27,182 nt of DNA from a virus. Numbering within the stretch: the first letter of the stretch is position 1; each line of letters starts with the position of its first letter. The stretch lies in the IMG/VR virus record IMGVR_UViG_3300024262_000200, positions 1-27,182 of that record; one strand, 5' to 3'. This document shows positions 1,989-17,198 of the stretch, one piece after another. The position numbers were made by a program, and so were the translations under genes. The notes beneath the pieces are model-generated. The model was not told where the DNA came from. It made no database searches and was given only the letters and a program-made list of their open reading frames with translations.

Positions 1989-2423
1989 TTAGCCTATCTG
2001 CTCAATGTTTAGAGTGACATCGCTATCTTTTGCCTTAGCATATACACTAATGACAATCCCCGCAGTCTTTAAAAGATAGAAGCGCTCCTGACCTGGAACT
2101 ATCTCAGTACCTACGTAACCCAAAGCATTTAGTGCTGTTAGATTCTGGGTAGGGCTTTCGTAGTTTATTTTGACATTGCCAGCGCCGTCAGTAGGATTCT
2201 GAATGTTTATACCTTCGCCAAGAACCAAGTCATTCAACTTAACCCAAGCAGAAGAAGTGATAACAACCTCTTTAACGATTGCATCTCTATTAAGTCCAGC
2301 GGTTTGAAATGATCCGCTAGCAGACGTTTTGACAATGACCTTACCTTCAGCGTCTAGATCAAACTTCTGGAACTCAAGAGTTTTGACGTCGCAGGGTATC
2401 GCTGTATAGGTATAGTCACCCAT
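1989..2423 (-). CDS. Hypothetical virion protein
   Basis: A 144-residue protein of unknown family, predicted mostly beta, with no Trp-rich or catalytic motif. It begins inside the last codons of the preceding small gene (8-base overlap), which indicates translational coupling, and it is followed three bases later by the next gene. The last 30 residues (VISVYAKAKDSDVTLNIEQIG) resemble the end of the downstream neighbour. It lies between the coat gene and the fibre-like gene, where phages often encode head decoration, stopper or vertex proteins. I cannot choose among these from the sequence. Confidence 0.7.
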   Translation of the reverse strand: MGDYTYTAIPCDVKTLEFQKFDLDAEGKVIVKTSASGSFQTAGLNRDAIVKEVVITSSAWVKLNDLVLGEGINIQNPTDGAGNVKINYESPTQNLTALNALGYVGTEIVPGQERFYLLKTAGIVISVYAKAKDSDVTLNIEQIG

Positions 2424-2625
2424 CTGTATCAGAAACCCTCATGGTTAGAAGATCCCCAACATCAGCAAGAAACCATGCATACCAAGAATCATCCTGCTTA
2501 CCGATATTGAAGTAGTGATACTCGATACCGTTAGCGAAGTTGTTTCTCACCATTGCGACGATTAGCGCGTCTGGGTTAGCTGCCTTGACGTATCTCGGAG
2601 CTTTGTAGACCGTTTTGCCTGCCAT
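2416..2625 (-). CDS. Small hypothetical head-region protein
   Basis: A 69-residue protein beginning MAGKTVYKAPRYV. It has no recognisable domain. Aromatic residues cluster at about 35-52 (YHYFNIGKQDDSWYAWF). It is the first gene after the coat gene and after the stem-loop at 2644-2679, so its expression depends on readthrough of that element. No strong ribosome binding site precedes the ATG, although GAG lies a few bases upstream. Its end overlaps the next gene by eight bases. A small virion component or assembly factor is a guess from position. Confidence 0.6.
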   Translation of the reverse strand: MAGKTVYKAPRYVKAANPDALIVAMVRNNFANGIEYHYFNIGKQDDSWYAWFLADVGDLLTMRVSDTDG

Positions 2626-2635
2626 GGATTCTCAC

Positions 2636-2679
2636 AAATATAAGCAGATGACTACCACCGTGAGATGATAGCCACCTGC
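2636..2679 (-). terminator. Stem-loop terminator/attenuator downstream of the coat gene
   Basis: On the minus-strand RNA, 2679-2666 (GCAGGUGGCUAUCA) pairs with 2657-2644 (UGGUAGUCAUCUGC) over 14 consecutive pairs around an 8-base loop. Three of the pairs are G-U wobbles. The stem is followed by UUAUAUUU. On the plus-strand RNA the three wobbles become A-C mismatches, so the structure fits leftward transcription only. It lies 14 bases after the coat stop codon. The U-tract is imperfect, so partial termination is more likely than complete termination. Confidence 0.6.
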
Positions 2680-2692
2680 ATTTTTAAATGTA

Positions 2693-3532
2693 TTAAGTAG
2701 CAGATCCTAAAAGAACAGCTCGCTTGCCTGAATCCATAGTCAGAGTTCCGTACTTCTGAGATACAGAATAAAGATTAGCAAGCTTGTCTAGTTGACGGTC
2801 TTGCTCAAATCGCGCTTCTCTATGCATAGCAAAGCCAGCGTGAGTAGGATGCCAAACAATAGTCTTAGCATCATCGAACTCGTTAGACATAACTACAGTA
2901 GCACCGTAGATTCTGCCAAGCTCACCCATGCGAAGGCCAGCAGCATCGCCGTAAGAATCGGCGCGAACAAAATCGGCTATCGCCAATAAATTTTTCTCAC
3001 TCCCAGGGGAGACTCCTAAGAAACACTCATTGAATGGAACATTCTGGATGTGAAGCAATCGCCGCGCTTCCAAGATGTCAGCCTGAGCTAAGCTAGTAGC
3101 GTTGGCATAAGCGATACGATGGTCAGGAGCAGCAGCAGAAGTAGCTTCCAATGCAGCAACGATATCAGTATCAACTTGCAATGCCATCTGCTTAGCCATT
3201 CGACCAATGATGTCTGCAACAATGTCAGGCTTAGCATTAAGCTCTGCATCGTCTTCAAGTAGAACTTGGATGACCTTGTACTTGTCTAGAGTCATGTCAT
3301 CAGTCGCATAGGTGAGAACCTGTGGAGTTACCGCAGTGTTTTCTGCCTTATCTTGAACTGTGAAATTACCGGCACGAGGAACTTTAATAACGTCATTACC
3401 CTTCTGCGCCAAAGCAGAGAAGTTCTGAACAGTACCAATAAGTTTCGCTGTCTCAATTAATTGCATCTGAATCTGAGCGCTAATCCGTTCTTCGACGGTA
3501 GCCGCTACTTCAGTTAAACCCATATCAGCCAT
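2693..3532 (-). CDS. Major capsid (coat) protein
   Basis: A 279-residue protein that follows the scaffold gene and has the layout of HK97/P22-fold coat proteins. An N-terminal helical segment (EERISAQIQMQLIETAKLIG) is followed by a beta-rich E-loop-like stretch at about 45-85 (KVPRAGNFTVQDKAENTAVT). A long region follows with the pattern ADIIGRMAKQMALQVDTDIVAAL, a feature of the P-domain spine helix. The C-terminal half contains the usual VSPGSEKNLLAIADF and IYGATVVMSNEF patterns. The ATG is preceded by GGAGAG seven bases upstream. The scaffold is a separate gene, and no protease gene is visible between portal and coat. A stem-loop follows the stop codon. Family assignment is by pattern and gene order. 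Confidence 0.88.
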   Translation of the reverse strand: MADMGLTEVAATVEERISAQIQMQLIETAKLIGTVQNFSALAQKGNDVIKVPRAGNFTVQDKAENTAVTPQVLTYATDDMTLDKYKVIQVLLEDDAELNAKPDIVADIIGRMAKQMALQVDTDIVAALEATSAAAPDHRIAYANATSLAQADILEARRLLHIQNVPFNECFLGVSPGSEKNLLAIADFVRADSYGDAAGLRMGELGRIYGATVVMSNEFDDAKTIVWHPTHAGFAMHREARFEQDRQLDKLANLYSVSQKYGTLTMDSGKRAVLLGSAT

Positions 3533-6525: not shown

Positions 6526-7773
6526 CTATAGCTCCAAGGTTCGACTTTTCTTTCGATCGCCGATTTTGTGTTCATAATAAACATCATACCCTAGTGCATC
6601 TGCCTTGTGTCCAAGGTTGTTCTTGTCGCTTGGATGTCTCCCATTGAGTTCCTGCGACGATAAATCTCGGATAAGGTCCTTACAACTAGGGTCTATCTCG
6701 ATTCTATGGTTGCCAGCCACAGGCTTTAGCCATCCATTCACATGTTTCAATCGGTCAACAATCGGCGGATTCTTAGGGAGTATCTCTATCACATAATTAA
6801 AACCATGTGATTTAAGTATCTCCTCTACGTAGTGGTAGTCTGACTTCCCTGTCGTACTACTCCTACTCTTCCCCGATGCATCACCCCGTATTTTTATCTT
6901 AATGTATTCGGCTTTGTTTTTAAAATCATTACAAAATTGATGGACTGTTGCCTCTGTCGATGAATGCTTGAGGCTATACTCTTGTTTGTATCTCAAAGTA
7001 TCGCCATATCTCTGGGATAGTAGCAGAGTTGTGGGATTGACGTTGAAGTCAAAACTCATATGTATGGCTTTGGAATAATTAATATCCGGCTGCTTCCTAA
7101 CATGGGTTTCTTCATCGAAGTTGTAATAAGCCAGACCTTCAAACGACTCCCACGTGGCCAGATATTCCTGCCTAAATGACTTCTCATCCAATTCACGCTT
7201 GGCGTCTTCAATCTCATCAGGGTCTATCCATGGATTATCTAGTGTGTGCCAAGTATGAAGCGACCATTGAGGATCGGTCTGCGCTTTGATAAACCACTCA
7301 TAAGCCTGCGAGCCTTTCCCATCGGGTGTAGTCGCAACGATTGACCTACCCTTGGTATCAGATAAAGCAGGTCTAACAGCTCTCCAAACATCATCTAAAT
7401 CAGAATTGAAATAGGCTAACTCATCTAGTGCTGCGAAGTGTAGAGGGCGACCACGTACGCGCGATATCTTCTCCGCACCGATAACGTAAATCTTTCGCTT
7501 ACCCATCAACTCGAAACGCTGCTTAGAAACTTGAGCTTTGTATCTCCATCCGAGAGCGTCTAAAGCATCTTCGATAGGCTCCCAGATAACTTCTTTGGCA
7601 TGGGAGTTAGTAGGTCCGATGTAGACTACTTCGTTACGGTAAGGAGCTTGGTCTATTGAACGTAATAGTTCTTCTACTAGGATGAAAGTTTTACCCCCAC
7701 GCCTGCCACAGTTTAAGTAGCGGTGACGTGAGGGATCATTGAAAGCATCAACCTGCTTGGGGTTCTGTTTCAT
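6526..7773 (-). CDS. terL: Terminase large subunit
   Basis: A 415-residue DNA-packaging motor. The ATPase domain has Walker A GRRGGKT at 23-29 and Walker B FAALDELAYF with Asp117-Glu118. The coupling motif ATTPDGKG lies near 147-154. The C-terminal RNase H-like nuclease has the acidic motif SFDFNVNP, a GDASGK element, and HKADALGYDVYY near the end. All hallmark residues are present and the length is normal. It overlaps the small subunit gene by four bases (ATGA), so the two are probably translated together. It works with TerS at the portal to cut and pump concatemeric DNA. Confidence 0.96.
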   Translation of the reverse strand: MKQNPKQVDAFNDPSRHRYLNCGRRGGKTFILVEELLRSIDQAPYRNEVVYIGPTNSHAKEVIWEPIEDALDALGWRYKAQVSKQRFELMGKRKIYVIGAEKISRVRGRPLHFAALDELAYFNSDLDDVWRAVRPALSDTKGRSIVATTPDGKGSQAYEWFIKAQTDPQWSLHTWHTLDNPWIDPDEIEDAKRELDEKSFRQEYLATWESFEGLAYYNFDEETHVRKQPDINYSKAIHMSFDFNVNPTTLLLSQRYGDTLRYKQEYSLKHSSTEATVHQFCNDFKNKAEYIKIKIRGDASGKSRSSTTGKSDYHYVEEILKSHGFNYVIEILPKNPPIVDRLKHVNGWLKPVAGNHRIEIDPSCKDLIRDLSSQELNGRHPSDKNNLGHKADALGYDVYYEHKIGDRKKSRTLEL

Positions 7774-8123
7774 GCAACCCTAGTTAGTGACGTTGGTGCC
7801 TTGTATTTATTTTGGTTCTCATCTACAGCATCGGTTTCAGACCAGCCACCACGACACTTAAGAAAAAACATCGTCATAGGATAGCACTTACCAGACGTTG
7901 CGAGTTGATATGCAGTCTTAGCCACTTCTGACAATGCCAGAGCCTTGCCCTTTTCTATTGCGACAGCCAGCTCAGGCTGATCCTTGACTCTACGCTCTAT
8001 AGTCTTCTTTGAAACGCCGATAATAGCAGCGCATTGAGCTAGCGTGATTCCTAGACCAGACATCTTTTCAATCTGCTCTATCTCTTTCTCAGTTATCATT
8101 CTTTTCTGCGTAGAATCAGCCAT
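7770..8123 (-). CDS. terS: Terminase small subunit
   Basis: A 117-residue protein directly upstream of terL. An N-terminal helix-turn-helix (about 15-50: ITLAQCAAIIGVSKKTIERRVKD) would bind the packaging site. The central and C-terminal parts (KGKALALSEVAKTAYQ, then ATSGKCYPMTMFFLKCRGGWSE) are typical of small terminase subunits with an oligomerising helical core. GAGGTG lies seven bases before the ATG, inside the end of the HNH gene, which it overlaps by eight bases. It should recognise viral DNA and regulate TerL. Confidence 0.9.
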   Translation of the reverse strand: MADSTQKRMITEKEIEQIEKMSGLGITLAQCAAIIGVSKKTIERRVKDQPELAVAIEKGKALALSEVAKTAYQLATSGKCYPMTMFFLKCRGGWSETDAVDENQNKYKAPTSLTRVA

Positions 8124-8607
8124 TTTTCTTCACCTCGCTAGGAAGCCAATAACCTGAAAACATTTTATTAGCACAACTGTTGTATGCTGCTACCGCCTGA
8201 TTTTCAGTTTCAAAGTAACCAATGAAATGAGTTTTATAGTCTTTGGTTATCCTAGCCCTGTATTTCTTATGCTTATTGCAATAGCTAACACCTTTTGCTG
8301 TTTTGCTATTTATCTTGCCACGAGCATTCATAGCATTCTGGCTTCGCGTCACGAATCTAAGGTTCTCTCTGCGATTGTCTAAGCCATTGCCATTGATATG
8401 GTCTACTACATAGCCTTTAGGAGGTTTACCCAAAATAACATGATGCATCAGAACTGTTTTCTTAGATGAATCTACTTCAGAACTTCTCACGTACTTAGAA
8501 TTGGGATACGTTCTAACGTACCACTTATACCCAGAGACAGAATCCATATCCGACTTTGAAACTTTTGCTATGTCACCACTTGGCAATTTTATCTTCGAGT
8601 CAGCCAC
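8116..8607 (-). CDS. HNH endonuclease with AP2 DNA-binding domain
   Basis: A 163-residue free-standing endonuclease. Residues around 50-95 carry the HNH motif: MHHVILGK, then VVDHINGNGLDNRRENLR, then VTRSQNAMNA. The C-terminal part (about 105-150: GVSYCNKHKKYRARI, then HFIGYFETENQAVAAY) is an AP2-like DNA-binding domain. This domain pair is typical of homing-type HNH nucleases. AAGGAGG abuts an ATG two codons upstream but stands six bases before the GTG at 8607, so the GTG is the likelier start. It lies in the terminase operon and overlaps terS. It may be a selfish homing nuclease or may assist packaging-site cleavage, as HNH proteins next to terminases do in some cos phages. The domain architecture favours the first. 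Confidence 0.9.
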   Translation of the reverse strand: MADSKIKLPSGDIAKVSKSDMDSVSGYKWYVRTYPNSKYVRSSEVDSSKKTVLMHHVILGKPPKGYVVDHINGNGLDNRRENLRFVTRSQNAMNARGKINSKTAKGVSYCNKHKKYRARITKDYKTHFIGYFETENQAVAAYNSCANKMFSGYWLPSEVKKNG

Positions 8608-8808
8608 TGGCATCCTCCTTCATTGGTTATCCCACTGGGATTATCGGCCAATATCTTTAAGTATTTAGATAATGATTACCACAAGCATAACAGAAAACGA
8701 AACCACAAACTAAATGCTATCATTTAGATACCGATGACTTAGCTGGTAACAACTGTCGAGACCTCCTTGACCGTTCGTGTCCCGTTAGGTTGTTGGCGCT
8801 TATTTCTT
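8608..8808. promoter_or_regulatory. Gene-free region between the terminase operon and endolysin, with palindromes
   Basis: No credible gene is visible here. Two perfect inverted repeats stand out: ATCCCA-C-TGGGAT at 8629-8641 and CTAAATG-CTAT-CATTTAG at 8710-8727. The first is about 20 bases upstream of the HNH start and could be an operator or terminase-binding site. The leftward head operon needs a promoter here. The best I can see on the minus strand is an extended -10 (TGTTATGCT, near 8690) without a good -35. The region upstream of terS is also where a cos or pac site would be expected. All functional readings are inference. Confidence 0.4.
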
Positions 8809-10300: not shown

Positions 10301-10774
10301 CTAGATGCAATCTTGAAGTTGAATCATTTGAGAGAATTTACGTGATGCATAAATGAACATCATCCGACCGGCAAGTTTTGCAGCCCTGTCTCTCCTGCCA
10401 GCAAAGTAGAATGGAATCCCTGAAGCCATCCAGCCGCATATTGAGCCAATTGCCGCATTTGGATGCACCTTGCTCCTATAGGCGCCTGTCTCGATATCTC
10501 CCCAATTCGCCTCCACAATGACCGCACGAAGGGGAAACGCTCTCAGACGCTCTAATTCCCTCTCAAATCGATCGCGGCCAGAACCTATACAACCAAGCAG
10601 GTCATCCAGGCTCTTGCGTTCTATGGCTATCTCAGACGCTAGAGAGGCTAACGTGTAGTCGCCGGTCTGAAGCGTTGCGCGTTTCACAGGTAGAGGGTCC
10701 ATATCCCATGGTAGCTGTTCACGTTTATCACAGAGAACTAATAGCTTTGACGGGTCTAGCTTCCTTGCTGTCAT
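10301..10774 (-). CDS. ERCC4-domain (XPF/Mus81-type) nuclease
   Basis: A 157-residue protein consisting of a single ERCC4 nuclease domain. Signature residues are Asp16 (VLCDKRE), Gly38-Asp39-Tyr40 (TGDYTL), the catalytic ERK at 52-54, and Asp57-Asp58-Leu (ERKSLDDLL). GSGRDRFERELERL follows. It lacks the helix-hairpin-helix pair of eukaryotic XPF and the helicase part. It should therefore cut branched or flapped DNA, either on its own or with a partner. The ATG at 10774 is selected by GGGGAG five bases upstream, and the first DnaA box overlaps this leader. It is the next gene after the SF3 helicase in the leftward operon, with the putative origin between them. A role in resolving replication or recombination intermediates is likely by family and inferred here. 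Confidence 0.88.
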   Translation of the reverse strand: MTARKLDPSKLLVLCDKREQLPWDMDPLPVKRATLQTGDYTLASLASEIAIERKSLDDLLGCIGSGRDRFERELERLRAFPLRAVIVEANWGDIETGAYRSKVHPNAAIGSICGWMASGIPFYFAGRRDRAAKLAGRMMFIYASRKFSQMIQLQDCI

Positions 10775-10805
10775 CTTCACTCCCCTGTGGATAACTTTTG
10801 TCTCT

Positions 10806-10825
10806 TGCAACCCTATGCAACCCTA
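10806..10825 (+). repeat. Tandem 10-base direct repeat (iteron-like)
   Basis: TGCAACCCTA occurs twice back to back. A third, shorter TGCAA follows at 10832. An inverted copy of the first eight bases (GGGTTGCA) lies at 10962-10969 on the far side of the AT-rich core. These are candidate binding sites for a phage initiator. Confidence 0.7.
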
Positions 10826-10913
10826 TAAGCATGCAAACGCCACAAAACTTTTTCTGTAATCTGTATATTATATACTCTATATATATTTACTCTTTTATAT
10901 TTAAAAAGAAGAA

Positions 10914-10931
10914 TTATAGTTGTTATAGTTG
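10914..10931 (+). repeat. Tandem 9-base AT-rich direct repeat
   Basis: TTATAGTTG occurs twice without a gap inside the AT-rich core between the DnaA boxes. Tandem AT-rich repeats of this kind are typical of DNA-unwinding elements. Direct sequence observation; the role is inferred. Confidence 0.65.
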
Positions 10932-11049
10932 TCAAAACAGTAGAATCATTAACTATTTTTTGGGTTGCAAATCCCGATTTATCCTTGCATTTGCATTGCA
11001 AATTGAAACCCCTGTTCATAAATAAAACAGCATCTGTGGATAACCCTGT

Positions 11050-12312
11050 CTATTTTTTTTGCAGTGAGTGATTTAAGGCTCTTACAGAAACTCCCGTAAA
11101 TCTCCAGCGGCCATCCAATCGCTTTTCTTCTGCGTTGTGATACTTGGCTAGATAAGTTTTGAATCGACGCCACTCTTTTCTCGATTTCGAGAATTGGGAA
11201 TAAAAAAGTTGATAGACGTAGCTACGGCGGCACGATCCCGCATTGCACAAATATTGGTCAAAGAACTCATCAAACAAATCGACTGAATTATCCTCGAGCG
11301 AAATCTCTACACTTTCATCTGTGGGAATCGGCATGCTGATATCACAATTGCGTAAATATTCAGCACGACACCAGGAGAAGAAAGTAGGAGCTTCTTCCTT
11401 AAGTTCTTTCACGTAATCTAGTCTGTTCTGACCTGTAGTAATCTCAGCGAAGATTCTGCGCCGTTTGTCGCTGGCCATCATTGTTACGTCTACATCTTCA
11501 TTTGTGCAGATAATAAACTTGGCATCGGAAACGCCAGTGAAAGCTTTTTCATAAAGGAAGCGATAGCTAACAGGGTCGCCTCCTGTGATTCCCTTGAATA
11601 CTTCTGTATTAGCAAAGCTGAGATACTGAGCGTCTGGGAATGCAACAACTCTCTTTCCATAGGTATCGCTAGTCCATTCTTTCGCCTTGACCCTATCTGA
11701 ATATGAGACAGTGAAAGTTGGCCCGAAGAAATCCGATAGACATTGCAGGAGCGAGCCTTTGCCGTCGCGGCCAGATCCTTTCAAGATGAGATACTGCTGG
11801 TTATAACTATCGGCGACAAAGATAGAACCAATGAAGTGAATCAATGCCTCACGGTTTGTTTTCACTCGCTCGATCCACTCAGCGAACAAAGGGCAAACGG
11901 AAAGCATTGTATCAGTATTGATTTCGTCTAGAAGCATATAAGGGTGGCGATGAAAGCAATAGCCATCATCTTCAAATCCAAGAACAGGAGCAGGTGGTTC
12001 TATCGGTATTGCGCTACTAATGTAGGTTCTGGCTATCTTAGCAGCCAAATCATAATCGAGATGAAAATCAACATCTGTATTAGCTCTTTTATAGGAAAGT
12101 ATTTCAGAAACTATTCCCTCGATATCTATAGGCTCTAAAACTTTATTTTCGTCAGCTAGATATGCTCTCTTTTTCCCGCCGTCTTTAACTACGATAATCT
12201 CGTTTTGCCATGCTAATAAACCGTCTGAATTAAATCCGCGATTGCCCAACATGACCTCAGTCATTAGGCTTATTATTTCCTTGTCTTTTAACTTCTTATT
12301 GGATAAAACCAT
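11050..12312 (-). CDS. SF3-type replicative helicase (D5/P4-like)
   Basis: A 420-residue helicase with the superfamily 3 core in its C-terminal half. Walker A is LKGSGRDGKGSLLQ (Lys near 185). A Walker B-like strand KRVVAFPDAQ follows, and the sensor motif C is AKFIICTNEDVDV. The arginine element is DKRRRIFAEI. These match phage and plasmid DNA helicases of the P4 alpha/D5 group. The N-terminal 110 residues have no primase motif, so a host primase or another protein must make primers. The ATG at 12312 has GGAG five bases upstream. The in-frame ATG at 12369 has none. The gene ends at an A-run directly before a DnaA box of the putative origin, which it probably unwinds. Confidence 0.9.
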   Translation of the reverse strand: MVLSNKKLKDKEIISLMTEVMLGNRGFNSDGLLAWQNEIIVVKDGGKKRAYLADENKVLEPIDIEGIVSEILSYKRANTDVDFHLDYDLAAKIARTYISSAIPIEPPAPVLGFEDDGYCFHRHPYMLLDEINTDTMLSVCPLFAEWIERVKTNREALIHFIGSIFVADSYNQQYLILKGSGRDGKGSLLQCLSDFFGPTFTVSYSDRVKAKEWTSDTYGKRVVAFPDAQYLSFANTEVFKGITGGDPVSYRFLYEKAFTGVSDAKFIICTNEDVDVTMMASDKRRRIFAEITTGQNRLDYVKELKEEAPTFFSWCRAEYLRNCDISMPIPTDESVEISLEDNSVDLFDEFFDQYLCNAGSCRRSYVYQLFYSQFSKSRKEWRRFKTYLAKYHNAEEKRLDGRWRFTGVSVRALNHSLQKK

Positions 12313-12431
12313 ACAATCTCCGATACCAAGGCGACCAAGTGAGTTAGATACAAAGCCAGCACCGACCATGCTGGTTTTTGTTTGTCTGGGACAGTTTGGA
12401 GATAGTTAAACAAACGATACAAATAGTCTAG

Positions 12432-12523: not shown

Positions 12524-12766
12524 CTAGGCCTTACGTGCCGCGCTAACCAGCTCACGAATCTTGAGAATCTTTGCATCGCTCACTCCTAGACAGCTTAAAG
12601 CCAGCCTAATCTTGTTTTTCTCGAACTCGGTAGCTTCACACTTGCCGTTCATTATCTTCGATACCCTAGCCTGATATACCTTCTTTTTAGCTCTTTTATT
12701 GGCCTCTCTGAGAATATCTTGCTGGCTGATTCTTAGCTGGAATAGTAGTTGACGTAGTGATGTCAT
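12524..12766 (-). CDS. Small XRE-like helix-turn-helix regulator
   Basis: An 80-residue basic DNA-binding protein. Its helical pattern matches a single Cro/CI-type (XRE) domain: LRISQQDILREANK as the first helix of the motif, YQARVSKIMNGKC as recognition helix and turn, then FEKNKIRLALSCLGV. There is no C-terminal dimerisation or protease domain, so it is Cro-sized. A strong GGAGGAG site precedes the ATG by nine bases. It is the first gene of the leftward early operon, diverges from the rightward operon, and faces an inverted repeat that overlaps both promoters. It probably represses one or both. Without an integrase in view, a lysogeny role is uncertain. Confidence 0.82.
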   Translation of the reverse strand: MTSLRQLLFQLRISQQDILREANKRAKKKVYQARVSKIMNGKCEATEFEKNKIRLALSCLGVSDAKILKIRELVSAARKA

Positions 12767-13398: not shown

Positions 13399-14010
13399 AT
13401 GAAACCCTACGTTGTTTTTGACATAGAAACCTACAAAAGCGATAGAGCCGAAGAATTCATTGAGCAAAAAGAAATCAAGCCAGACTCTAGGCTCAAAGAT
13501 CCTGCGAAGATTGCCGCTGATATAGCAGATAAGAAAGCTAAGAAACTTAGTCAAGCTGCATTGTCTCCTATAACTGGTCGCGTAACCTGTATGGGCTTGA
13601 GCTATAATGGCGACTTCCATTTCTTTATACATAAAGATGAAGCTACGCTACTGAGAGAAATCAATATCTTTCTATCTGGTAAAGAAATTGGCGCATACGT
13701 TGGGCACAACAGCGTAGGCTTTGACCTTCCTTTCTTGAGAGTCAGACATTTGGCTAATAATATCTCGATGCCATCTTGGTTACAGCCAGAATGCAGGCAT
13801 CAAGACACTATGTTGATGATAGATAGGCGCAATATGGTAGGGCTATCTGATATCGAGTGGCTTCTAGACATCAATCGAGACTCTCAAAAAGACGGCAAAG
13901 CAGCTCTTAAGTTTTGGGAAGATGATGACTGGGAATCTCTGAAGCAATACAACCTAGACGATGTTAGAACCACTGAAACGCTTTATCTGAAACTAATAGG
14001 AGAAGCATAA
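13399..14010 (+). CDS. DEDDy 3'-5' exonuclease (DnaQ/PolB-exo-like)
   Basis: A 203-residue nuclease of the RNase H-like DEDD superfamily. Motif I is VVFDIET with Asp8 and Glu10. Motif II is GHNSVGFDLPFL, with its Asp near 110. Motif III is Y184-N-L-D-D188, the Tyr form that marks DEDDy enzymes. No polymerase domain is attached. It is most similar in layout to stand-alone phage exonucleases related to the proofreading domain of family B polymerases. It overlaps the next gene by one base (TAATG). Together with the following annealing-protein candidate and SSB it forms a likely recombination or replication-repair set. Confidence 0.88.
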   Translation: MKPYVVFDIETYKSDRAEEFIEQKEIKPDSRLKDPAKIAADIADKKAKKLSQAALSPITGRVTCMGLSYNGDFHFFIHKDEATLLREINIFLSGKEIGAYVGHNSVGFDLPFLRVRHLANNISMPSWLQPECRHQDTMLMIDRRNMVGLSDIEWLLDINRDSQKDGKAALKFWEDDDWESLKQYNLDDVRTTETLYLKLIGEA

Positions 14011-14723
14011 TGTCTAACCAGCTAGTGCCAACATCGTTCAAAGAAATGCATAGCCAAGCAACGGTCTATCTTAAAAGCGGGTTTCTTCCTGCCTCTATCA
14101 AAAGCCCAGAACAAGCAATGATGATAATGGCGAAAGGCATAGAGTTGGGATTGCCTCCTGTCTATGCCCTAACCCATATCAACATCATTCAGGGGAAACC
14201 TACCGTTCCGCCTGAAGTTATGCTGTCTCTCATCTATCAGCGCTGTCCAGGCGCGATTATCGACTACAAGCAGAATGATTCTGAAGCCTGCGTTATCGTC
14301 GCAACCCGTCCCGGTCATCAGCCAGCAGAATTTTCATACACGATGGAGGATGCCAAGCTTGCTAAACTCGACACCAAAGACAACTGGAAAAAATACCCGA
14401 CGGATATGCTACGAGCTAGGTGTATTAGTCGTATGGCTAGAGCTAGGTTTGCTGATTGCATTAGCGGAGCTTCGTACGTTCCAGAAGAAATGGGAGCGCA
14501 CGTCAATGAAGAAGGCGAAGTTATCGATATAGACGTTAATCGTATCGAGGATCAAATTTATGAGGGTAAAGACTATCAGAAGCTATGGCTGGCTGATGTT
14601 TTCAAAAGCTACGGGATAGAAAGGGATCGCTGGTCTGAGTTGAGCGCTTCACTTCTAGAGAAAGAACTCACGCTAGAAGATTGTAAGTATAATATAGCTT
14701 TGGAGGTATCTCCTAGTGACTGA
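14010..14723 (+). CDS. Probable RecT-like single-strand annealing protein
   Basis: A 237-residue protein. The N-terminal half has a pattern seen in phage proteins annotated as RecT-like recombinases: MIMAKGIELGLPPVYALTH, then IIQGKPTVPPEVMLSLI. A beta-rich stretch follows, then KNWKK-like DNWKKYPTDMLRARCISRMAR and a GASYVPEEMG motif. The C-terminal region (about 175-237) is acidic and variable. The ATG overlaps the exonuclease stop. An exonuclease gene directly upstream and an SSB gene nearby support a role in strand annealing. Membership in the RecT superfamily is judged by motif and context only, so the subfamily is uncertain. Confidence 0.65.
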   Translation: MSNQLVPTSFKEMHSQATVYLKSGFLPASIKSPEQAMMIMAKGIELGLPPVYALTHINIIQGKPTVPPEVMLSLIYQRCPGAIIDYKQNDSEACVIVATRPGHQPAEFSYTMEDAKLAKLDTKDNWKKYPTDMLRARCISRMARARFADCISGASYVPEEMGAHVNEEGEVIDIDVNRIEDQIYEGKDYQKLWLADVFKSYGIERDRWSELSASLLEKELTLEDCKYNIALEVSPSD

Positions 14724-14969: not shown

Positions 14970-15350
14970 ATGAAGAACTACGTTTCCCTAGTCGGGCATC
15001 TCGGCAAACCACCAGAGATGAAGCCTATCAATGACACCCATCTGTGCAAGTTCTCAATCGCTGTCAATGAGGTAGTGAAAAAAGAGAAGGTAACTAACTG
15101 GTTTAATATCGTCGTTTGGGGAAAGGTCGCTGAAAACTGTGGCAAGTATCTAAGCAAAGGCTCGCTAGTCAAAGTTGACGGTCGCCTTGATATCAGAAGC
15201 TATGAGAACAAAGATGGCGAGAAAAAAACCGCTGTCGAGATTGTAGCCAGTAGCGTTGACTTCCTTCAGACAGGTGAGAAGAAAGCCCAGACCGATGACT
15301 ATCAATCTTCCAATTCTAAGCCTCAAGAAGAGATGGAGATACCGTTCTAA
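14970..15350 (+). CDS. ssb: Single-stranded DNA-binding protein
   Basis: A 126-residue SSB of the bacterial OB-fold type. The N-terminal strand NYVSLVGHLGKPPEM is followed by CKFSIAVNEVV and then the diagnostic NWFNIVVWGKVAENCGKYLSKGSLVKVDGRL. A DKDGEKKTA-like NKDGEKKTAVEIVA hairpin follows. The disordered C-terminus ends in the acidic tip EEMEIPF, equivalent to the DDDIPF tail that recruits partner proteins. AGGAG lies six bases before the ATG. It should coat ssDNA at the phage fork and may recruit host or phage repair enzymes. Confidence 0.96.
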   Translation: MKNYVSLVGHLGKPPEMKPINDTHLCKFSIAVNEVVKKEKVTNWFNIVVWGKVAENCGKYLSKGSLVKVDGRLDIRSYENKDGEKKTAVEIVASSVDFLQTGEKKAQTDDYQSSNSKPQEEMEIPF

Positions 15351-16079: not shown

Positions 16080-16242
16080 GCTCTAGTTCCCTTATTTTGC
16101 GAAAAGCTTCATTTAGATCTTTTCTATTCTGCTTTGTGCAGGAGAAAACCCAACCTATCTTATTGCCAGTCCAGAATATCATAGCGACCAGAACCGAGGT
16201 TGCTGCGCCTGTGATAACTTTATCGGCAATATCAGCTATCAC
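16051..16242 (-). CDS. Small membrane protein with coiled-coil tail (lysis accessory, spanin-like or antiholin)
   Basis: A 63-residue protein. The start is taken as GTG 16242, which overlaps the upstream stop by four bases (GTGA) with AGAGG upstream. An in-frame ATG at 16269 has no site. One membrane span covers about 8-33 (ITGAATSVLVAMIFWTG), followed by a charged helix (about 37-62: NRKDLNEAFRKIRELEHEL). One span followed by a long charged helix is the layout of a small inner-membrane spanin, but with only some 25 residues it is short for spanning the periplasm. An antiholin or second holin is equally possible. Confidence 0.6.
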   Translation of the reverse strand: MIADIADKVITGAATSVLVAMIFWTGNKIGWVFSCTKQNRKDLNEAFRKIRELEHELNREDND

Positions 16243-17198
16243 TTGACTACCTCTGGATAAGCGAACCATATCCCAAATATTAGATCCATCGCGGGAGTAG
16301 CTAGGCCATTGCCGTCTGGGGTTTCCCAGTTATCAGCGCTACATCTTTGATGCCTATATTCCCATTGATTATATTGAAACTCGTTTTCTACCCAATCGAG
16401 AATATCACGCCTAGCGCACCAGTGGTCCATGATAGGCAGGTTAGCCTCTTCAGTCGCATAACAAAAGCTCTCGTGAGCAGCAGCTAACAGGTTGCCTGAA
16501 TCTTCTAAGAATGACAGATAGAGGAAACTTAGGTGAACAGGAAAGCATGATTTTCTAGCTTCGATGTTTATACTAGACCAAGTGATAGCTTGCGCTTCTA
16601 AGCCTCTATATCGAACTTTGCTAGGTTCTTCACCTTGATCTAGCATGTAAGAAATGTAATCACGGATGGCATTAAACTGAGGCAAAACTGTAGCAGTGAC
16701 ATTGGGATGCAAAACATAATCGTTATCTTCTAGATAGTCTGTGTGCTGCTTCCAAGTATCGTACCACTTATCATGATTGCCGCAGTTCTTTAGGCGCTGA
16801 TAGACCCCATAATATAAGCCAGTAGCGCCATCGAATGTTATCTCTCTACCGTTAGCGTATTCCCCTAGAGGCTCATAGCGAACCATTGCGCCGGAGTTCG
16901 AGTTAAACATCTGAATCATTCTATCCTCGATAGCTTCGCCTTTGTCGCATGGAAGGGAAGCCATAGCTAACCCCGTCCAAAGTAGCGAATCGCCTTCATG
17001 TTCAGTCGAGCCATCTTGATCGCGCGATACCACCCAGTTATCTTCGAGATAGTCTGATGTAAGACGATCAACTGCCTTATCGTAAATAGCCTGTATATCA
17101 TCGGGAGTATCAGACCTTTTTTCATTCCTATCACTCCCAGAGCTAGCGCATGAAAATGAAAGAACCAAAATGATTATATGCGAACCTAGTTTAAGCAA
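16239..17198 (-). CDS. Exported lipoprotein-like protein with a possible alpha/alpha-toroid fold
   Basis: A 319-residue protein with an N-terminal export signal (LGSHIIILVLSFSC, Cys17). The Cys is preceded by Ser-Phe-Ser, so it is not a canonical lipobox, although a Leu stands at -4. Seven Cys in all (Cys17 plus six) would allow three disulphides after lipidation. Helical repeats with HEGDSLLWTGLAMASLP, then ITFDGATGLYYGVYQRL, and the C-terminal DGNGLATPAMDLIFGIW resemble alpha/alpha-toroid carbohydrate-active or related enzymes. No specific family or catalytic pair can be fixed. The start is a TTG with AAAGGGA about six bases upstream. It follows the receptor-binding gene and precedes the lysis genes, a position where phages may carry receptor-blocking lipoproteins or surface-modifying enzymes. 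Confidence 0.65.
   Translation of the reverse strand: MLKLGSHIIILVLSFSCASSGSDRNEKRSDTPDDIQAIYDKAVDRLTSDYLEDNWVVSRDQDGSTEHEGDSLLWTGLAMASLPCDKGEAIEDRMIQMFNSNSGAMVRYEPLGEYANGREITFDGATGLYYGVYQRLKNCGNHDKWYDTWKQHTDYLEDNDYVLHPNVTATVLPQFNAIRDYISYMLDQGEEPSKVRYRGLEAQAITWSSINIEARKSCFPVHLSFLYLSFLEDSGNLLAAAHESFCYATEEANLPIMDHWCARRDILDWVENEFQYNQWEYRHQRCSADNWETPDGNGLATPAMDLIFGIWFAYPEVVK

Follow-up and report, generated by a model that had tools for sequence, protein, structure and literature searches.

A candidate replication origin with mirrored iterons and two DnaA-type boxes adjoining the 3' end of an SF3 helicase gene in an uncultured phage

The longest internal gap of a 27,182-bp virus contig record, the whole of which is the window analyzed here, raises the question of what its non-coding DNA is for. 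This gap of 275 bp (10775-11049) follows directly on an SF3 helicase gene and precedes a gene for an ERCC4-type nuclease. A sequence-only reading had proposed a symmetric hybrid origin, in which host DnaA would serve a phage helicase. Our results indicate that the gap, marked out by its length, gene context and repeats and assigned to no strand, is very probably a phage replication origin recognized by the phage's own SF3 initiator helicase. This estimate covers the origin and its initiator, and any part played by DnaA is weighed separately below. The origin reading is based on the anatomy of the gap, on synteny, and on named origins found at the same position in other phages.

Most of the contig's terminase, portal-like, capsid-like, and tail-type genes are encoded on the minus strand; the terminase was identified by a match and the other structural gene names were read from the translations. 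IMG/VR found no terminal repeats on the contig. Tail genes run across the contig ends (1-294 and 26846-27182), a gene order that points to a genome that is circularly permuted and almost complete. A pair of ORFs that overlap on the minus strand (26763-26413 and 26488-26198), immediately ahead of the tape measure gene, resembles tail assembly chaperones, and the gene next upstream of that for the terminase small subunit encodes an HNH endonuclease with an AP2-like domain (8116-8613). A lipoprotein-like protein of 319 aa without a Pfam match is conserved between the lysis/tail region (16239-17198) and locus L008 (3830-4780). The replication module includes an SSB gene on the plus strand (14970-15350), assigned by profile matches, together with a RecT-like gene (14010-14723) and a 3'-5' exonuclease gene (13399-14010), whose product gave no matches as a search query. 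No near-identical phage was present in the phage collection searched, bacterial genome contigs yielded no helicase or terminase relatives, and the plasmid search returned distant P4-type primases only. Searches with the helicase, both as a single sequence and as an alignment, retrieved no relatives beyond G001 and the more distant L056. The latter also encodes a secreted-looking protein (2329-3096) with a weak Hint/intein-type match below the Pfam cutoffs.

The two flanking genes proved to be as the sequence-only reading had placed them. On the minus strand, the helicase gene (11050-12369) ends at 11050 and the ERCC4 gene (10301-10774), identified by profile matches, likely starts at the ATG at 10774. 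A ribosome-binding-type GGGGAG precedes this codon, which lies near the gene start in G001, and similarity to this relative begins there. A longer, TTG-started frame (from 10810) would overlap the DnaA-type box at 10786-10794; with the start at 10774, neither perfect box is coding. Profile matches define the helicase as a 439-aa initiator-type protein of the DUF5906/D5-like kind. It scores 43.4 bits against PF19263 (cutoff 27.6), matches PHROG 1829 and 864, two primase/helicase families, over the helicase part only, and aligns by profile with a chain of known structure that is named primase (6k9e, E 0.00035). Pfam and PHROG searches revealed no primase domain in its 439 residues, nor was a primase detected among the other replication-region proteins tested, and neither a phage primase nor a phage polymerase turned up near the helicase. 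The full-length model was too poor (pLDDT 48), and the C-terminal domain was therefore modeled separately. Folded alone, the last 85 residues (11050-11307, minus strand) give a predicted winged helix with a pLDDT of about 93, a candidate iteron-binding domain. Its structural neighbors include the RFX DNA-binding domain (Z 8.2), the C-termini of vaccinia D5 and mpox E5, and the P4 origin-binding domain 1ka8, the last a modest match whose Z of 5.4 is level with unrelated winged helices. A Foldseek search with this domain gave no significant match, which is not evidence of a new fold. Thus, the model is consistent with an origin-binding domain without proving one.

The gap is the whole-window maximum for the pentamer TGCAA. 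Sites lie at 10806, 10816, and 10832 on the plus strand and at 10985, 10991, and 10996 on the minus strand, and palindromic TTGCAA occurs at 10805, 10965, and 10996. Once merged, they amount to seven sites, against a shuffle mean of 1.16, and none of 500 shuffles reached seven, either for TGCAA or for any other GC-containing 5-mer. The ERCC4-side arm (10805-10836, plus strand) holds three copies, TTGCAACCC, ATGCAACCC, and ATGCAAACG, and the helicase-side arm (10962-11001, minus strand) holds inverted copies including GGGTTGCAA. The claim that direct TGCAA repeats are mirrored by inverted ones stands for the longer iteron TGCAACCC, whose arms are mirrored with two copies and one copy; for TGCAA itself the mirroring is partly automatic, because three of its sites are palindromic. 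Mirrored 7-mers as in the gap arose in 1 of 300 shuffles. Between the arms lies an AT-rich core (10857-10956, no strand), a candidate unwinding element that forms the least stable 100 bp of the record. Here the sequence-only reading was borne out: the 100-bp stretch with the highest AT content in the window (82%) begins at 10861, a stability profile places the weakest DNA of the record inside the gap whether it is scanned over 50, 100, or 200 bp, and the tandem 9-mer TTATAGTTG lies within the core on the plus strand (10914-10931, copies at 10914 and 10923). GC skew, put forward as a further check, did not single out the gap, as the detrended cumulative minimum falls at 12,708 (-123) compared with -112 at the gap. 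With almost all genes on the same strand, this measure is not diagnostic in the window; its minimum follows the switch in gene direction.

The two perfect DnaA-type boxes are present as claimed. Read on the plus strand as TGTGGATAA, they occupy 10786-10794, just upstream of the ERCC4 ribosome-binding site, and 11035-11043, proximal to the helicase gene; both are minus-strand copies of TTATCCACA and match the DnaA consensus exactly at 9/9 positions. They are embedded in an 11-bp direct repeat, CTGTGGATAAC, at 10785-10795 and 11034-11044. No other match to TTATNCACA occurs in the 27,182 bp, where 1.06 would be expected by chance, with 0.030 expected in the gap; for TTATCCACA, the expectations are 0.22 and 0.004. 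A weak box, TTATGAACA (11013-11021, minus strand), has one mismatch to TTATNCACA and lies 22 bp from a perfect box. The symmetric layout that had been proposed therefore holds for the iterons and not for the boxes, which share one orientation and are direct rather than mirrored.

A similar arrangement is found in other phages and elements. In the phiadh record (NC_000896), a rep_origin is annotated directly after the SF3 primase ORF771, and in the Sfi21 record (NC_000872), a 302-bp origin directly follows the SF3 primase gene. Reading these two sequences, we found in each an AT-rich core with short repeats to its left that recur in inverted form to its right. The Sfi21 element is described as functioning as an origin (PMC6356513). 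Moreover, in the archaeal plasmid pRN1, the sequence just 3' of the SF3 replication gene is required, and its authors note similar structures in some phages (PMC4234260). SaPI Rep and SCCmec Cch2 are reported to recognize, with their C-terminal domains, short iterons that lie directly downstream of their own genes (PMC7581432). Mirrored repeats directly after the SF3 gene also occur in phiSP119-3 (TTGGAAG), L056 (GTAACCAG), L009 (TCGGAC), L010 (ATACCA), and L011 (GTCCACA), and both L009 and the relative G001 share with the window the order helicase, gap, ERCC4. The Sfi21 iterons (GTTACT, L061:10516-10769) resemble those of L056 (AGTAAC/GTAACCAG, 7200-7487), perhaps by chance. Mirroring was significant (p<0.05) in 40 of 50 distinct loci, drawn from one Gram-positive family. 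The primase genes of Vibrio phage 234P10 and Microbacterium phage BAjuniper are followed by no gap, and the gap of Pseudomonas phage MR14 lacks mirrored iterons; the layout is thus common, not universal. Origins of this kind, in which iterons peculiar to each phage flank an AT-rich core in mirrored arms right after the SF3 helicase gene, are already known. The contrast that the sequence-only reading drew with SF3 phages relying on their own initiator was misplaced: self-initiating SF3 helicases typically have this very layout. Perfect DnaA boxes do not generally belong to such origins: none was found in the 50 surveyed loci (0.71 expected) or in ten further gaps after SF3 genes, that is, in 60 other gaps in all. 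The window carries two perfect DnaA-type boxes as an unusual addition, with the role of DnaA unproven.

G001 allows the conservation of these elements to be followed in one relative, whose helicase and ERCC4 proteins are 52% and 66% identical to those of the window. The two gaps align poorly apart from the box core. The only 9-mers with at least two G/C that they share are GTGGATAAC, its one-base shift, and the AT-type CTCTATATA. The window and the available G001 sequence each contain two copies of GTTATYCAC, in both cases confined to this gap. G001 has two matches to GTTATCCAC at no more than one mismatch, equaled in 2 of 500 shuffles; GTTATYCAC was chosen partly after seeing both sequences, and the one-mismatch test lessens that bias without removing it. 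The G001 boxes, TTATTCACC and TTATCCACC, end in C where the DnaA consensus has A. The TGCAA array is missing from the G001 gap, where mirroring is weak. The check on conservation hence gave a divided answer, as in this single comparison the box core appears to be conserved and the iterons do not. A conserved host factor would explain such a pattern.

How the boxes are to be explained is the most delicate point. The same kind of origin might operate with no part for DnaA, GTTATYCAC being a second site of the phage initiator, or a site of another phage protein, that looks like a DnaA box. This explanation, which disputes the DnaA step and not the origin, is a strong contender that we place slightly under an even chance. 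It accounts for the retention in G001 of the box core and not of its last base, so that what is conserved falls slightly short of the DnaA consensus, and for the lack of perfect boxes in all the other gaps checked. Iterons elsewhere also vary freely and can mimic DnaA boxes by chance, as do CTATACACA in phiadh and GTCCACA in L011. However, both window copies are exact 9/9 matches and the sole ones in the record, and they are direct, whereas the initiator iterons of this class are mirrored. Since the G001 boxes end in C, and since an initiator 52% identical could keep one site, we regard DnaA involvement, as suggested by these motifs, as roughly an even chance, if anything a little below that.

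The remaining explanations bear on the gap as a whole. It could be mainly regulatory, a promoter/operator for the ERCC4 gene and the genes beyond in which the repeats are repressor or DnaA-regulated sites; we consider this unlikely, and the regulatory and origin roles are not mutually exclusive. The gap is indeed non-coding and lies between co-directional genes, one box is just upstream of the ERCC4 ribosome-binding site, and a small HTH-like gene is located nearby (12524-12766). Against this, no sigma-70-like site was found on the ERCC4 strand within the gap, and the mirrored arrangement of iterons about the record's least stable DNA matches annotated origins at the same position. Accidental repeats in AT-rich non-coding DNA would fit the loss of the TGCAA array in G001 and the fact that the element was picked by eye. 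Nevertheless, this is highly improbable given that no shuffle among 500 equaled the iterons, that two copies of TTATCCACA against 0.004 expected correspond to a Poisson probability of about 1e-5, with no correction made for selection, and that the same architecture is found in many phages.

Returning to the origin recognized by the SF3 helicase, its initiation could proceed as follows. The C-terminal winged helix of the helicase encoded by the adjacent gene would bind the mirrored TGCAA(CCC) iterons. One helicase ring would assemble on each arm, and the weak AT core of 100 bp that separates the arms would open. The helicase would next unwind outward from the core, most likely followed by host DnaG and Pol III, given that the vicinity of the helicase yielded neither a primase nor a polymerase of the phage. 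Host DnaA, at the one perfect box outside each arm, may help to open or stabilize the core, and this is the least certain step. Of the hybrid origin proposed from sequence, the origin part is supported by the anatomy, the synteny, and the named origins; the DnaA part is possible and unproven, with no perfect box in the 60 other gaps and the last base off in G001. In its full form, a primase-less, self-loading SF3 helicase would act on its own iterons, and host DnaA would either open the core or tie initiation to the DnaA state of the host. We hold this form tentatively, and somewhat more doubtfully than an even split.

With this locus, the origin of an uncultured phage lineage can be called with confidence. 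The pattern of rapidly changing, mirrored iterons flanking an AT core, placed just 3' of an SF3 helicase gene, can serve to locate origins even in phages that are only distantly related. Should the DnaA boxes prove functional, the phage would have a helicase that loads itself and yet remains responsive to the host initiator.

Among known systems, the phiadh origin shares with the window its position directly 3' of an SF3 helicase gene, its mirrored short repeats, and its AT-rich core. It differs in its repeats, GTGTAGGGTT/CTATACACA, in having no TTATNCACA, in a longer protein of 771 aa annotated as a primase, and in belonging to a different host group. The Sfi21 origin, or PER element, likewise lies 3' of an SF3 primase gene and combines mirrored repeats (GTTACT) with an AT-rich core, whereas it lacks perfect DnaA boxes and its iterons are unrelated. 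The SaPI Rep origin and the Cch2 site (PMC7581432) also pair a self-loading initiator helicase with iterons downstream of its gene; they belong to staphylococcal islands, the passages that describe them bring in no DnaA boxes, and the binding demonstrated there is a prediction for the window. The window helicase, as predicted, resembles P4 alpha (1ka8) in bearing a C-terminal winged helix on an SF3 helicase. P4 alpha has a primase domain fused to its helicase, and the window protein departs from this fused primase-helicase type in that no primase domain was found in it. P1 oriR and RK2 oriV are DnaA-assisted origins, where the plasmid's own initiator and host DnaA boxes meet at an iteron origin, and their initiators load host DnaB. 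The window would be like them in joining iterons to DnaA boxes and unlike them in its initiator, theirs not being SF3 helicases.
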